Assembly (NCBI RefSeq): GCF_004118975.1
Contig: NZ_CP035376.1
Location: 3,152,430 to 3,216,429 of the forward strand
Direction: 5' to 3'
Origin: Luteimonas sp. YGD11-2
GTDB taxonomy: Bacteria > Pseudomonadota > Gammaproteobacteria > Xanthomonadales > Xanthomonadaceae
DNA: 64,000 bases
In this document: positions 22,843-58,798 of the stretch, in pieces
Position numbering within the stretch: position 1 is the stretch's first letter
Layout of the letters: each line of letters opens with the position of its first letter
Translations under genes and position numbers: made by a program
Notes under the pieces: generated by a model
What the model was told of the DNA's origin: nothing
What the model saw: the letters and a program-made list of their open reading frames with translations, nothing else
The model's database searches: none

Positions 22843-23736
22843 TCAGGCGATCGATGCCTGGTAGATCGACTCGATGGCCACGTCCAGCGACTGGTTGAAC
22901 GCCTCGTCGGTCTGCTGCGCGCTCAGGCCTTCGGTCAGCGCGCGGCTGAAGCTCGCCACCACGCCCGGGTTCTTTGCCAGCTTCGCGTTGGCGTCGTCGC
23001 GGCTGTAGCCGCCCGACAGCGCCACCACCTTCAGCACCGCCGGATGGTCGACAAGCTCCTGGAACCAGCCGTCCACGCTCGGCAGGGTGAGCTTGAGGAT
23101 CACCGGGGTATTGGCATCGATACGATCCAGCCGCTCGATCAGGCCCTTCTTCAGCTCGACCTCGATGGCTTCCTTGTCGGCGGCCTTGATGTCGACTTCC
23201 GGCTCGATGATCGGCACCAGCCCGGCATCGAGCACCTGCTGGCCGAGCTCGAACTGCTGGTCGAGCACGGCAGCGATGCCGCCTGCATTGTTGGCCTTGA
23301 TGACCGAGCGCTCCTTGGTGCCGAACACGCCCTTGGACTTCGCCTTGGCCAGCAGCTCGGCGAGGCCCGGGATCGGCTTCATCAGCTGCACGCCATCGGC
23401 CTCGTCCTCGAGGCCCTTGTCGATCTTCAGGAACGGCACGACCTGCTTCTCGTTCCACAGGTAGCTGGCGGCGTCCTGGCCGGCGAAGCTGGCATCGAGC
23501 GTGCGCTCGAACAGGATGGCGCCGAGGACGCGCTCGCCGGTGAACGCCGGGCTGGTGACGATGCGGGTGCGCATCTGGTGCACCAGGTCGTACATGCCCG
23601 CCTCGTCGGACCACGCCGACTCGTCGATGCCGTACAGCTTCAGCGCCTTCGGCGTGCTGCCGCCGCTCTGGTCGAGTGCGGCGATGAAGCCCTTGCCCGA
23701 GGCGATCCTGTCGAGTTGCTGCTGATTCACTGCCAC
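22843..23736 (-). CDS. class I fructose-bisphosphate aldolase
   Basis: A 297-residue class I (Schiff-base) aldolase that splits fructose-1,6-bisphosphate in glycolysis or makes it in gluconeogenesis. Visible features are FIAALDQSGGSTPKAL near residue 17, ILFERTLDA, VPFLKIDKGLEDE, VPIIEPEVDI and a central ILKLTLPS strand with the likely Schiff-base Lys, then VVALSGGYSRDDA. It ends at a strong intrinsic terminator and is divergent from the DUF3348 operon. No metal-ligand motifs of class II enzymes are present. Confidence 0.93.
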   Translation of the reverse strand: MAVNQQQLDRIASGKGFIAALDQSGGSTPKALKLYGIDESAWSDEAGMYDLVHQMRTRIVTSPAFTGERVLGAILFERTLDASFAGQDAASYLWNEKQVVPFLKIDKGLEDEADGVQLMKPIPGLAELLAKAKSKGVFGTKERSVIKANNAGGIAAVLDQQFELGQQVLDAGLVPIIEPEVDIKAADKEAIEVELKKGLIERLDRIDANTPVILKLTLPSVDGWFQELVDHPAVLKVVALSGGYSRDDANAKLAKNPGVVASFSRALTEGLSAQQTDEAFNQSLDVAIESIYQASIA

Positions 23737-23869: not shown

Positions 23870-24541
23870 ATGCACGACGCCCAGCCCGGGGCAGCCGTTC
23901 CAGCCTCCACCCTGCCCCGCCTGCTGGCGCGGATCGCGGGAGCGGCGCCGATGCCGCCCGTGCAGGCGCCGGCGGCGCGGCTGGGCGAATGGCTGGACTG
24001 GCCACGCGCGGTGGCGCTGTCGCGTGCGCTCGACGGCCCCGCGGCGGCAGACGACGACACCGGACCGGATGCGGATGCGGATGCCGACGACTGCACGCGC
24101 GTGCGCGAGGACCTCGCCCAGGCCATCGCCGCCGACCGCGGCTGGCCTGCGGTGGATGCGGACAGTGATGCCGCCGCCGCCGCGGTGCTGCGCCACTGCC
24201 AGTCCCTGCAGCGCGCGATGCAGGCGGCCACCGGCCGCCTGCGTGGCCAGCTGCGTGACCGGCTGGCCCGGCAAACGCCGCGGCAGGCACGCCTGGCCGC
24301 GGTCGATGCCGTGCTCGAAGCGGTGCTGAGCCCGCGCGAGCATGCGCTGCTGGCCCCGGTACCGGCGCTGCTGGCCGCGCATTGCGGGCGCCTGCAGCGC
24401 GGCACCGGCGGCGACGGCCACGGCTGGTATCGCCCGTTCCGCGAGGACGCCCGGCAGGTGCTGCTGGCCGAATTCGACCTCCGTTTCCAACCCGTCGACG
24501 CGCTGCTTGCCGCGCTTCGGCCCTCCCCCGTGGACGCATGA
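23870..24541 (+). CDS. DUF3348 family protein, first gene of ZorAB-like motor operon
   Basis: The 223-residue product is hydrophilic and Ala/Arg rich with no signal peptide. An Asp-rich stretch (DDDTGPDADADADD near residue 62) follows an N-terminal helix; the rest is predicted helical with CQSLQRAMQAATGRLRGQL and a conserved-looking C-terminal FREDARQVLLAEFDLRFQPV. It resembles DUF3348 proteins as I remember them, which accompany DUF802 and DUF2894 genes in beta- and gammaproteobacteria. The stop overlaps the next start (ATGA). Function is unknown; a cytosolic partner of the tail of the next protein is one possibility. Confidence 0.75.
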   Translation: MHDAQPGAAVPASTLPRLLARIAGAAPMPPVQAPAARLGEWLDWPRAVALSRALDGPAAADDDTGPDADADADDCTRVREDLAQAIAADRGWPAVDADSDAAAAAVLRHCQSLQRAMQAATGRLRGQLRDRLARQTPRQARLAAVDAVLEAVLSPREHALLAPVPALLAAHCGRLQRGTGGDGHGWYRPFREDARQVLLAEFDLRFQPVDALLAALRPSPVDA

Positions 24542-26625
24542 ACAGACAACTCCTCCATTGGCCGGTGTTCGCCACCGGCCTGCTGGCGATCGGCTGGATC
24601 GGCGCCGGCTACATCGGCAGCCACACGCTGGCACTGGCCGTCACCCTGCTGATCGCTGCGCTGTACCTGGTCGGTGCGCTGGAACTGCATCGCTACCGAC
24701 AGGCCACCGCCGGCCTCGGTCGCGCCCTCGATGGGCTCGCGGCGCCACCGGCGACGCTCGCGGAATGGCTGGACCCGCTCGATACCTCGTTGCGCGGCGC
24801 GGTACGCCTGCGCGTGGAGGAAGGTCGTGCGCCACTGCCGGTGCCGTCGCTGACGCCCTATCTGGTCGGGATGCTGGTGCTGCTGGGCATGCTCGGCACC
24901 CTGCTCGGCATGCTGCTGACCCTGCGCGGCACCGGCATGGCGCTGCAGACCGCGAGTGACCTGCAGGCGGTACGCGACTCGCTGGCCGCGCCGGTCGAAG
25001 GCCTTGGAATCGCGTTCGGCACCTCGATCGCCGGCATCGCGGCCTCGGCGATGCTGGGCCTGCTGGCAGCAATGTGCCGCGGCGAGCGCGCCGCGGTGGT
25101 GCGGCGCCTGGATGCCGCGATCGCCACCACGCTGCATACGCATTCGCGCGCCCGCCAGCGCGACGAGGCGCTGCAGCTGATGCGCGCGCAGTCCGCCGCC
25201 ATGCCGGCGCTGGTGGACCGCCTGCAGGAGATGATGGCCGCGCTGGAGCGCCAGGCGCAGGCCGCGCAGGCACAGCAGGCCGAGCGGCAGCAGCACTTCC
25301 ACGCTGGCACCGCGGCCGCCTATGAACGTCTCGCCGCATCGGTGGAGCAGTCGCTGCAGCGCAGTGCCGTCGACAGCGCGCGTGCATTCGGCGATGCCCT
25401 GCAGCCCGTGGTGGCCACCACGATGGAGGCGGTGACCCGTGACACCGCACGCCTGCACGAGTCGGTGACCGCCGCCGTCGAGCGCCAGCTGCAGGCATTG
25501 GCCACGAGCAGCGAAACCAGCACCGATGCGATGACCACGCTGTGGCAACAGGCGCTGGACCAGCAGCGTGAGGCACAGGCCGCGCTGGCCGACACCACCC
25601 GTGAGCGCCTGGACGGGGTTGGTACGCGTTTCACGGAACACGCCGCGACGCTGGCCGATGCGGTCGCCACCCAGCTCGACGGCAGCGCCACCCGCCTCGC
25701 CGGCGCGTGGGACGCGGCGCTCGAGCGCCAACAGGCGCAGCACGCGGCGCTGGTCGAACAGCAGCAGGCCGCACTGGTGGCCGCGGGCGACCAGCTCGCC
25801 GCCAGGGCGCAGACGTTGCTGGACGACGTCGCGGCCTCGCATACGCGCCTGCAGGACGCACTGGCCAGCGGCGACGGCGAACGCCTCGCGGCATGGAACC
25901 GCGAACTCGGTGCGATCGGTGCTGCGCTGCGCGAGGACTGGGCACGCATCGGCGATGACGCCGCGCAACGCCAGCAGGCGATCTGCGATGCACTCGCACG
26001 CACCGCGCAGCAGATCGGCGAGCAGTCGCAGGCGCATACCAGCGCCACCATCGCCGAGATCGCCACGCTGGTGCAGGCGGCATCGGAAGCGCCACGTGCG
26101 GCTGCCGAGGTGGTGGCCGAGCTGCGCCAGAAGCTGTCCGACAGCATGGTGCGCGATACCGCAATGCTGGCCGAGCGTAGCCAGCTGATGGACACGCTGG
26201 CCACCCTGCTCGACGCGGTGAACCACGCCTCGGTGCAGCAGCGCGAGGCGATCGATGCGCTGGTGTCGACCAGCGCCGGGCTGCTGGAGCGGGTTGGCGA
26301 CCGCTTCCTTGCGCAGGTCGAGCAGGAAACCGGCAGGCTCGACGCCGCCGCCACCCGCATCGGCGCCGGCGCCGCGGATGTCGCCAGCCTCGGCGAGGCC
26401 TTTGCCGGCGCGGTGGAGCTGTTCGGCGCCAGCAACGAGCGCCTGCTGGAGCGACTCGACGGCATCGGCGCCACGCTCGACGCCACCGCCACCCGCAGCG
26501 ACGAGCAGCTCGCCTACTACGTCGCGCAGGCGCGCGAGGTGGTCGACCTCAGCGTGCTGGCGCAAAAGCAGATCATCGAGGAACTGCGGCAGCTGCCCGG
26601 CGTGCGCGACAGGGCCGGCGCATGA
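24538..26625 (+). CDS. DUF802 family membrane protein; MotA/ZorA-like channel with long coiled-coil tail
   Basis: The 695-residue protein has two N-terminal membrane helices (about residues 10-27 and 31-50). After a short cytosolic loop a second pair follows at 107-129 and 155-179. That second pair reads LLGMLGTLLGMLL and IAFGTSIAGIAASAMLGL, the GTxxG and AFxTSxxG patterns of the MotA/TolQ/ExbB/ZorA proton-channel superfamily. The remaining 500 residues are a long, largely helical, Gln/Ala-rich tail with repeats such as WQQALDQQREAQAAL (near 335) and WDAALERQQAQHAAL (near 390), as in DUF802 repeats. A long cytoplasmic tail is characteristic of ZorA. It overlaps both neighbours by four bases. 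The motor assignment is inference from fold-level patterns. Confidence 0.82.
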   Translation: MNRQLLHWPVFATGLLAIGWIGAGYIGSHTLALAVTLLIAALYLVGALELHRYRQATAGLGRALDGLAAPPATLAEWLDPLDTSLRGAVRLRVEEGRAPLPVPSLTPYLVGMLVLLGMLGTLLGMLLTLRGTGMALQTASDLQAVRDSLAAPVEGLGIAFGTSIAGIAASAMLGLLAAMCRGERAAVVRRLDAAIATTLHTHSRARQRDEALQLMRAQSAAMPALVDRLQEMMAALERQAQAAQAQQAERQQHFHAGTAAAYERLAASVEQSLQRSAVDSARAFGDALQPVVATTMEAVTRDTARLHESVTAAVERQLQALATSSETSTDAMTTLWQQALDQQREAQAALADTTRERLDGVGTRFTEHAATLADAVATQLDGSATRLAGAWDAALERQQAQHAALVEQQQAALVAAGDQLAARAQTLLDDVAASHTRLQDALASGDGERLAAWNRELGAIGAALREDWARIGDDAAQRQQAICDALARTAQQIGEQSQAHTSATIAEIATLVQAASEAPRAAAEVVAELRQKLSDSMVRDTAMLAERSQLMDTLATLLDAVNHASVQQREAIDALVSTSAGLLERVGDRFLAQVEQETGRLDAAATRIGAGAADVASLGEAFAGAVELFGASNERLLERLDGIGATLDATATRSDEQLAYYVAQAREVVDLSVLAQKQIIEELRQLPGVRDRAGA

Positions 26626-27263
26626 GCCTGGAAATCGACGTCGACGACGGTGCCGGCGCACCGGTGTGGGCGGCCTTCGGCGACCTGATGTCGGTGCTGC
26701 TGGGCGTGTTCGTGCTGATCCTGGTCGGCGTGATCGGCGTGCAGCTGCACCTGGAAGTGCAGCTGCAGGAGGAGATCGCCCAGCGCCGGGCCGAGGAGCA
26801 GCGTCGGCAGGCCCTGGAGGACGCGCTGGCCGTGCCGCTGGCCGCCGGCCGCATCACCCTGGTCGACGGCCGCATCGGCATCCGCGGCAGCGTGCTGTTC
26901 GCCCTCAATTCCGACCGCCTGCAGCCCGAAGGCGTGGAACTGCTGGAAACGCTGGCGGGGCCGCTGGCCGGCTACCTCGGCACCCGCGACGAGATCCTGA
27001 TGGTCAGCGGCTTCACCGACGACCGCCAGATCCGCGGCGACAACCGCCGCTTCGCCGACAACTGGGAACTGTCGGCGCAGCGCGCGCTCACCGTGACCCG
27101 CGCGCTGGTCGAGCACGGGGTGCCGGCGTCGTCCGTGTTCGCCGCCGCGTTCGGTGCCGAACAGCCGGTGGCGCCGAACACGGACGAGGCGGGACGTGCG
27201 CGCAACCGCCGCGTCGAGATGGCGCCGGTCCCGCGCCAGCAGCCGGCCGCCCATGGCGGCTGA
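26622..27263 (+). CDS. OmpA-domain MotB/ZorB-like protein with transmembrane Asp
   Basis: The 213-residue protein has a single N-terminal membrane helix, FGDLMSVLLGVFVLILVGVI (residues 19-38), with Asp21 at its cytoplasmic end. That is where MotB and ZorB carry the proton-accepting Asp. A coiled linker follows (EIAQRRAEEQRRQALED), then a peptidoglycan-binding OmpA domain: GSVLFALNSDRLQPEG, VSGFTDDRQIRG, LSAQRALTVTRALVEHG and NRRVEM. It lacks a cleavable signal, as expected for a stator-type anchor. It overlaps the DUF802 gene by 4 bases and the DUF2894 gene by 11. With the upstream protein it would form an ion-driven rotor/stator-like complex. Confidence 0.86.
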   Translation: MSLEIDVDDGAGAPVWAAFGDLMSVLLGVFVLILVGVIGVQLHLEVQLQEEIAQRRAEEQRRQALEDALAVPLAAGRITLVDGRIGIRGSVLFALNSDRLQPEGVELLETLAGPLAGYLGTRDEILMVSGFTDDRQIRGDNRRFADNWELSAQRALTVTRALVEHGVPASSVFAAAFGAEQPVAPNTDEAGRARNRRVEMAPVPRQQPAAHGG

Positions 27264-27909
27264 CGCAGCCACCCGCGTGGCGCCGACGCCCTCCGTTGCG
27301 CAGGCACTGCGCAGCGGACGCATCGCCGCGCTGCGCCGGCGCATGGACGCTGTGGACGACGCCGTGCGCGCGGCGCTCGAGCAGCGGATCGCCGCACTCG
27401 AAGCATCGCCCGCCGGAGAGCCGAGGCATTGCATGCGGCGTGGCGCGATCGGCGACGACCGCGCGACCGGCCAGCCAGCCCCGGGGCATGTTCCAGCGCC
27501 CGGTGCGCGAACGTCGCTGTTCGCCCCGCTGTTGGCCACGCTCGAACAGGAGGCCGGCTGGCGCGATGCACATGCGGTCGACGGCCTGCCGACGCGTGCC
27601 GCCTATCCCGCGCTGCCTGCACTGCAACCACTGCGCGCGCTGTGGGCGCGGTTGCGCATCGAAGGCCAGACCCGCGAGGCGCTCGCCCCGGCGGCCACCG
27701 ATGCCGGCCCGCTGAACTCCGCCAACCTGGTGCAGCGCGCGCTGCGGCTCATGCGCGATGAATCACCCGATTACCTGCACCATCTGATGGCCTACCTCGA
27801 CGTGCTGGCCACCCTGGAACGACTGCCGGCGACCGGCAGCCAGCAACCGGGCGATGCCGCGGCGCCGGCGAAGAAGCGCGCCCGGGCGTCACGCGCGAAA
27901 CGCAGGTAA
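27253..27909 (+). CDS. DUF2894 family protein, last gene of ZorAB-like motor operon
   Basis: A 218-residue soluble protein starting MAADAATRVAPTPSVAQALR, with helical N- and C-terminal parts and a Pro/Gly-rich middle (ATGQPAPGHVPAPGART). The C-terminal region LVQRALRLMRDESPDYLHHL is followed by a strongly basic tail (KKRARASRAKRR). It matches DUF2894 as I recall it, a family always seen next to DUF802/OmpA genes. It overlaps the OmpA gene by 11 bases. The basic tail could bind nucleic acid or acidic partners, but no catalytic motif is visible. Confidence 0.75.
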   Translation: MAADAATRVAPTPSVAQALRSGRIAALRRRMDAVDDAVRAALEQRIAALEASPAGEPRHCMRRGAIGDDRATGQPAPGHVPAPGARTSLFAPLLATLEQEAGWRDAHAVDGLPTRAAYPALPALQPLRALWARLRIEGQTREALAPAATDAGPLNSANLVQRALRLMRDESPDYLHHLMAYLDVLATLERLPATGSQQPGDAAAPAKKRARASRAKRR

Positions 27910-28107: not shown

Positions 28108-28226
28108 GCCCGTCGCGCGCACCGCGGGGTGTGCTCCCCCGGCCGGAGTCCGCGTCCAGCTACCACGGCCGGCCGCCGGCCATCCATGGCCGGCTGGGCG
28201 CACACCCCGCGGTGCACGCGACGGGC
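28108..28226. repeat. type-A long-hairpin element, copy 1
   Basis: The 119-base element has arms GCCCGTCGCG...CACCGCGGGGTGTGC pairing with GCACACCCCGCGGTG...CGCGACGGGC, and an inner hairpin with CGGCCATCCATGGCCG. It differs from the 58-kb copy at 4 of 119 positions by my count. Two of these differences form a compensatory C-G to G-C exchange in the stem. Confidence 0.85.
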
Positions 28227-28414: not shown

Positions 28415-28528
28415 GCCCGCCGCGGCCGCGGGGGGATGTCCAGAGCCGGCCATGGATGGCCGGCGGCCGGATGTGGGAGCAGGACGCGGAGATATCCGGC
28501 TGGGCATCCCCCCGTGGCCGCGGCGGGC
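28415..28528. repeat. type-B long-hairpin element, copy 1
   Basis: A 114-base element with 24-base arms (28415-28438 and 28505-28528) that pair throughout with one G-T wobble. Inside lies the AGCCGGCCATGGATGGCCGG hairpin and a GGATGTGGGAGC...GATATCC segment. The 58-kb copy has the same length. Confidence 0.85.
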
Positions 28529-58454: not shown

Positions 58455-58573
58455 GCCCGTCGCGCGCACCGGGGGGTGTGCTCCCCCGGCCGGAGTCCGC
58501 GTCCGGCTACCACGGCCGGCCGCCGGCCATCCATGGCCGGCTGGGAGCACACCCCCCGGTGCACGCGACGGGC
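58455..58573. repeat. type-A long-hairpin element, copy 2
   Basis: The element has the same 119-base length as the copy at 28108. CACCGGGGGGTGTGC pairs with GCACACCCCCCGGTG, so the change relative to copy 1 keeps pairing. GTGTGCTCCC also pairs fully with GGGAGCACAC here, whereas copy 1 has one mismatch. Confidence 0.85.
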
Positions 58574-58684: not shown

Positions 58685-58798
58685 GCCCGCCGCGGACGCA
58701 GGGGGATGTCCAGAGCCGGCCATGGATGGCCGGCGGCCGGATGTGGGAGCAGGACACGGAGATATCCGGCTGGGCATCCCCCTGTGGCCGTGGCGGGC
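58685..58798. repeat. type-B long-hairpin element, copy 2
   Basis: A 114-base element with 24-base arms. CAGGGGGATG pairs with CATCCCCCTG, where copy 1 has CGGGGGGATG with CATCCCCCCG. One A-G mismatch and two wobbles occur in the outer arms. The inner AGCCGGCCATGGATGGCCGG hairpin is identical. Confidence 0.85.

Follow-up and report, generated by a model that had tools for sequence, protein, structure and literature searches.

The window analysed here, the whole stretch of 64,000 nucleotides from Luteimonas sp. YGD11-2, carries four overlapping open reading frames (ORFs) on the + strand at 23870-27909, which almost certainly make up a complete anti-phage system of Zorya type III, an ordinary example of its kind. 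The original prediction presented them as an undescribed ion-driven motor; the same gene set, however, was named Zorya type III by Payne et al. in 2021 (PMC8565338). The type of system and its phage protection were therefore already known, and the locus adds one more member. What is new here is the fixed gene order, the invariance of Asp21 in ZorB, a rule for the length of the ZorA rod, a conserved distal part of ZorA and a basic tail on the DUF2894 protein. Taken together, we read the locus as a type III defence system in which a rod would keep register, the accessory proteins would dock at its distal part and a basic tail would bind a target, and we give this overall reading a probability of about 0.62.

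Assignment to Zorya type III

The first gene (23870-24541) encodes a 223-residue DUF3348 protein predicted to be all-helical (PF11828, E 7.5e-51; PADLOC model PDLC00658, 1.9e-64), and the second (24538-26625) encodes a ZorA of 695 residues (PDLC00650, 4.6e-298; PDLC00649, 5.8e-283, matching end to end), the tail of which is also matched in two stretches by DUF802 (Pfam, 7.3e-12). The third gene (26622-27263) encodes a ZorB of 213 residues with one membrane helix and an OmpA-type domain (PDLC00651, 2.4e-111), and the fourth (27253-27909) a DUF2894 protein of 218 residues (PF11445, 1.1e-30; PDLC00652, 7.7e-41). Thus all four genes match PADLOC models of Zorya type III, with E-values from 4.6e-298 to 7.7e-41. 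The overlaps are 4, 4 and 11 bases, within the 4-11 bases first noted, and Pfam and PADLOC agree with the original prediction on the gene order and on the DUF3348 and DUF2894 flanks of the motor core. The motor core itself was correctly recognised as ZorA/ZorB, as the PADLOC ZorA3 and ZorB3 models and the similarity to a solved ZorA indicate. The NCBIfam ZorA models give this ZorA just 19.2 bits against a cut-off of 250 bits, and NCBIfam PRK09040 matches ZorB at 4.1e-110 under the bare family name ‘hypothetical protein’. PADLOC-DB calls the DUF3348 protein ZorG3 and the DUF2894 protein ZorF3. In papers ZorF is the DUF3348 protein and ZorG the DUF2894 protein, and this swap of names can mislead annotation.

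The locus has the features by which type III is recognised: a ZorA with a MotA/TolQ/ExbB-type motor and a long tail, a ZorB that combines a membrane aspartate with an OmpA domain, and a ZorA/ZorB pair flanked by the genes for DUF3348 and DUF2894. These are the same four protein kinds in the same flanking arrangement as in PMC8565338, and we found no difference at the level of the system. ZorC, ZorD and ZorE were found neither in the operon (PADLOC, E up to 1) nor among the ten neighbouring proteins (E up to 1e-5), in a search that covered these proteins and not the rest of the genome. The window locus therefore differs from type I (ZorABCD) in having no ZorC or ZorD helicase within this range, and from type II (ZorABE) in having no ZorE HNH nickase, and the DUF3348 and DUF2894 proteins stand where the other Zorya types have their accessories, as had been proposed. 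Likenesses to types I and II are the long cytoplasmic tail of ZorA and a ZorB with a needed aspartate and a peptidoglycan-binding domain, both reported in the accessible part of PMC11890865. The available text of PMC8565338 reports 6,401 instances of type III, from a group that includes Stenotrophomonas and Xanthomonas. According to the same text, the cloned type III system of Stenotrophomonas nitritireducens reduced plaquing of at least one phage in E. coli BL21-AI, and guards against phage PVP-SE1 at a multiplicity of infection (MOI) below 0.1. By analogy with this relative, the window locus would protect its host against phages.

Several lines of evidence place ZorA and ZorB among ion-driven motors. 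The motor part of ZorA (residues 1-225; 24538-25212), delimited by conservation and hydropathy, has four hydrophobic segments at residues 5-23, 30-48, 109-127 and 158-176, and the motifs GTLLG and AFGTSIAG lie at residues 120-124 and 159-166, which bears out the two membrane-helix pairs with these motifs expected from the first reading of the sequence. ZorB has a single hydrophobic segment at 22-40. Among the 47 sequences compared (the window and 46 relatives), T121, P152, T162 and S163 of ZorA are invariant, and so are Asp21 of ZorB (codon at 26682-26684) and D146, N147, L150, R154, N195, R196 and R197 of the same protein; conservation of Asp21 was one of the points on which the original prediction had staked itself. 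By analogy with solved relatives Asp21 would be the ion-carrying position, and the OmpA-like domain (residues 92-196; 26895-27209; PF00691, 2.2e-18) is of the peptidoglycan-binding type; this pattern of conservation would fit ion conduction at Asp21 and peptidoglycan binding. As a single sequence, ZorA matched the solved chain 8vvn_C over residues 109-286 (E 1.9e-6), and a profile built from 26 sequences of this motor part matched the same chain over 108-195 (E 3.1e-7); the five other profile matches were all chains of calcium release-activated channels, with E-values of at least 0.086. The structure 8VVN shows ZorAB of type I from Shewanella sp. ANA-3, so the anticipated profile similarity to the MotA/TolQ superfamily is present, and as judged from these matches ZorA belongs to the MotA/ZorA kind of motor. 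The flagellar MotAB stator is an ion motor made of a MotA-like A subunit and a peptidoglycan-anchored B subunit, a design like that of ZorA and ZorB. Unlike that stator, the window ZorA has a long rod tail and different partner genes, and no MotA family appeared among its Pfam and NCBIfam matches at E up to 1. In the accessible text of PMC12505986, Zorya is described as being more distantly related to the MotAB group.

Linkage, distribution and surroundings

Two sets of loci were compared. The first was located by the N-terminus of ZorA alone and comprises 46 relatives besides the window, after one locus at a contig end (L057) and eleven short stretches (L001-L011) had been left out. The second was located by ZorB and began with 100 stretches, 92 of them from the 105 family matches described below and the others from the genus and class surveys, of which one cut by the chosen coordinates (L102) and one at a contig end (L157) were left out. 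All four genes were found together, in one order and on one strand, in 46/46 uncut loci of the first set, and the same order was found in 98/98 uncut loci of the second (in 11 of these 98 ZorA nearly repeats a first-set sequence). The neighbourhood survey proposed at the outset thus showed the four genes together in every uncut locus examined.

Going by the names of the closest named proteins and loci, the host is a Luteimonas-like bacterium of the family Lysobacteraceae. The system is patchy in the genus: DUF3348 was found in 34 of the 47 good genomes and ZorB3 in exactly these, each as a single copy. Among the five further genomes, two (89% and 73% complete) carry DUF3348 but no ZorB3. In the family, ZorB3 was found in 105 of 246 good genomes and in 17 of 46 genera (one ZorB frame, G555, was listed with a stop and left unrepaired); because the per-genus counts have no denominators, we do not claim core status in any genus. 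In the class, ZorB3-like proteins occurred in 10/364 good genomes, 8 of which also have DUF3348. In a tblastn search ZorA was found in 27 of 72,556 plasmid records, of which the smallest measures 366 kb and the 26 others at least 588 kb; none of the 50,697 phage records contains it. The matching genomes listed each carry a single copy of the locus. In its accessible part, PMC13064858 also cites type III Zorya among the highly conserved systems of Ralstonia solanacearum.

Gene clustering, which detected the four known genes in 47, 40, 37 and 34 of the 47 loci, found no gene beyond these common to more than nine of the loci, so the position of the locus varies. The ten neighbours in the window are two subunits of ribonucleotide reductase, a flavodoxin, a thioredoxin, a thioesterase, an aldolase, a glucose/sorbosone dehydrogenase-like protein, an M20 peptidase, QueF and a LysM protein; they look like housekeeping proteins, and none of the ten has a PADLOC match. 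The system is a single-copy module in varying surroundings, and the genes nearest to it in the window do not form a defence island.

The aldolase is a fructose-bisphosphate aldolase class I (22843-23736) that stands head to head with the operon. Within the genus it adjoins the operon in 6 of 52 genomes, and by gene-call clustering a homologue lies within the stretch of eight other loci, including those of Dyella and Burkholderia. Just downstream of the operon, the GC-rich near-palindrome GCCGGCCATNCATGGCCGGC forms an inverted pair (28175-28194 and 28445-28464), and it recurs as an inverted pair at 58522-58541 and 58715-58734. With at most one mismatch it has 71 forward and 65 reverse matches genome-wide, versus 0 for the backward control; its sites often match both strands, and many of those listed are opposite-facing pairs ∼190-335 bases apart. 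This family looks like an element of the repetitive extragenic palindrome/bacterial interspersed mosaic element (REP/BIME) type.

The ZorA tail and the accessory proteins

Beyond the motor part, ZorA continues as a proximal rod with hendecad-type periodicity (residues 226-500; 25213-26037) and a conserved distal tail (residues 501-695; 26038-26622). Mean conservation per 25 residues is 0.70-0.95 over residues 1-225, falls to 0.52-0.74 over 226-500, and is 0.81-0.88 over 501-600, 0.70-0.73 over 601-650 and 0.91 over 651-675. The hydrophobic period is 3.69 residues at 226-320 and 3.67 at 300-500, both above the 99% level of shuffles, and 3.56 and 3.57 at 500-600 and 600-695, respectively.

The rod varies in length among relatives by nearly whole helical turns. 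We measured it between the invariant anchors P223 and L511, after dropping from the second set the 11 ZorA sequences that share 90% identity or more with the first, which left 87 new sequences. The length is 289 residues in 29/47 first-set and 34/87 new sequences and ranges from 198 to 637 over 145 sequences. The 16 distinct length differences of the first set (171 and 172 come from sister sequences; 102, found at three loci, was counted once) cluster at whole turns, with a best period of 3.635 residues per turn, at which the mean cosine is 0.776, a value equalled in none of 5000 jittered sets; at 3.5 residues per turn it is -0.10. With the period fixed at 3.635, the 17 new differences of the second set gave 0.84 versus -0.01 (standard deviation 0.17) under the null, a value reached in 0/20000 trials. 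Of the 33 distinct differences pooled, 31 deviated from a whole number of turns by no more than 0.2 turn, and 23 of these by no more than 0.1; three variable loops of the DUF2894 and DUF3348 proteins gave -0.05, 0.02 and 0.05 at the same period. This clustering would be explained by a continuous coiled-coil rod that stays in register between the motor and the distal part. We found no paper that brings together at least three of the topics Zorya, ZorA, hendecads and coiled coils, in a literature search conducted mostly without subscription journals. The longest rod, of 637 residues and more than twice the usual 289, belongs to the 1045-residue ZorA of Cupriavidus necator UYPR2.512 (L023, 8001-11135).

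The distal part behaves differently from the rod, as the interval from L511 to Q676 shows no length change of seven residues or more in the 145 sequences. The class scan found two genomes of one family (f27) with a ZorB3-like protein and without DUF3348. They carry two-gene pairs of ZorA-like and ZorB-like genes, L059 (1549-3390 and 3409-4062, + strand) and L060 (4213-6069 and 3560-4216, - strand); neither genome (completeness 93% and 90%) yielded a DUF3348 gene, and the retrieved stretches yielded no DUF2894. Their ZorB shares 45-52% identity with that of type III, and their ZorA score 121 and 120 bits with the type III motor profile, whereas the distal profile gives only -0.9 and 5.9 bits. 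Three held-out ZorA from four-gene loci (L014, L050 and L061) scored 346, 303 and 214 bits with the motor profile and 245, 246 and 134 bits with the distal one. Because a distal match goes with the accessories (3/3 versus 0/2), the distal tail is a likely candidate, from few and divergent cases, for the part at which the DUF3348 and DUF2894 proteins would dock. Proteins similar to the ZorB of the two-gene pairs bear the names Beggiatoa (a metagenome-assembled genome), Sorangium, Minicystis and Chondromyces.

The accessory proteins have no family match at E ≤0.001 besides their own DUF and PADLOC Zor models, and their profiles match no solved nuclease, helicase or ATPase; no nuclease or helicase domain was recognised in the operon, as had been stated earlier. 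The alignments consist of the window protein with 104 of the 120 listed DUF3348 proteins (318 found) and with 102 of the 120 listed DUF2894 proteins (134 found), some of which may be fragments. The AlphaFold2 model of the DUF3348 protein consists of helices only (predicted local distance difference test 87.1, predicted template modelling score (pTM) 0.81), and no clear solved relative of the protein was found. The DUF2894 protein has a strongly conserved stretch AGPLNS...SPxYL...L, and its last 20 residues (27847-27906) form a basic C-terminal tail by net charge count. The net charge of these residues is at least +4 in 93/103 aligned proteins, versus 8.5% in shuffles. Among the ORFs of the 47 loci such a tail is present in 44 of the DUF2894 proteins, 6 of the ZorB proteins and none of the DUF3348 or ZorA proteins, and it occurs in 30 of 348 flanking gene calls (heuristic gene calling based on third-position GC content, GC3). 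That this tail binds nucleic acid is a plain guess from its charge.

Possible modes of action

On our preferred reading, five ZorA would surround two ZorB, as in the solved type I and II complexes, and ZorB would grip or sense peptidoglycan when a phage disturbs the envelope, so that the ion path opens, again by analogy with types I and II. The five ZorA tails would form one continuous hendecad-type coiled-coil rod that holds the motor and the distal part in register; a rotation or twist would pass along it to the distal part, where the DUF3348 and DUF2894 proteins would dock, and the basic tail of the latter would bind nucleic acid or another anionic surface. Because there is no recognisable nuclease, the final effect might be the holding or blocking of phage DNA, or the gating of an ion leak by the two accessories. 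We consider this rod-to-cap docking mechanism on the whole probable, and from a coiled-coil rod kept in register we infer that torque may be transmitted along ZorA.

Several points weigh against this. Any uninterrupted coiled coil would vary by whole turns, and the length rule does not thereby prove torque transmission. The differences 172 and 348 (2/33) lie more than 0.2 turn off, the mean cosine of the first set is just 0.51 at the hydrophobic period of 3.667, and the accessory-loop controls are weak because their lengths run nearly consecutively. Moreover, the accessory-less ZorA are more divergent overall, and their lost tail similarity could be plain divergence. The model of the DUF2894 protein is helical with low overall confidence (pTM 0.35), and its basic tail could instead bind membrane or RNA. 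A stronger version of the preferred reading, a defence without an enzyme in which a phase-locked shaft, with a roughly threefold length range covered just in steps of near-whole helical turns, and its conserved cap would mechanically work two non-catalytic helical adaptors, one of them holding nucleic acid by its basic tail, is tentative and, in our view, doubtful.

An ion leak could itself be the effector, if the accessories just gated the motor and the ion flow depolarised the infected cell (abortive infection). The lack of other family matches and of solved nuclease, helicase or ATPase matches for the accessories is consistent with this, protection at an MOI below 0.1 would suit an effect at the population level, and Payne et al. 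propose, in the available text, that the two DUF proteins regulate ZorAB instead of ZorC, ZorD and ZorE (PMC8565338). However, according to the accessible part of PMC11890865, a nickase serves as the effector in type II, and DNA is the reported target of the type I protein ZorD. The basic tail on the DUF2894 protein also gives a hint of a nucleic-acid target, and we think a mere leak rather unlikely. The original prediction allowed for a housekeeping envelope machine rather than phage defence, and such a machine might hinder phages only when over-expressed. The single copy in the listed genomes, the presence in 105/246 good genomes and 17/46 genera of the family, the housekeeping look of the ten neighbours with no PADLOC match, the 0 matches in phage records, the rarity on plasmids and the mention as highly conserved in R. 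solanacearum (PMC13064858, as far as accessible) all speak for that part of the suggestion. Its denial of defence does not fit the published protection in E. coli, and a system found in 34/47 good genomes of the genus, with DUF3348 in 8/364 good genomes of the class and a varying position (no extra gene in more than 9/47 loci), is improbable as a housekeeping machine. Finally, a flagellar or TolQR/ExbBD-type motor unrelated to Zorya would share the common MotA/TolQ/ExbB design and an OmpA domain that resembles MotB in sequence, but it has practically no chance of being right. PDLC00649 (1-695 of 698) and the ZorB3 model (1-209 of 215) fit end to end, at E up to 1 the ZorA sequence matches a single solved protein, itself a ZorA, the profile match agrees with this, and the long tail and the DUF3348 and DUF2894 partners point the same way.

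The preferred reading, a type III defence with a register-keeping rod, concerns a system whose accessories have no recognised effector domain, and the rod rule, the distal part and the basic tail offer three concrete sites at which it can be probed. Defence that is lost with half-turn changes of the rod but tolerates whole-turn ones would show that the shaft's mechanical register matters. If the enzyme-less version is true, the accessory-less two-gene relatives, which have lost the cap or never had it, would represent a different use of the same motor.

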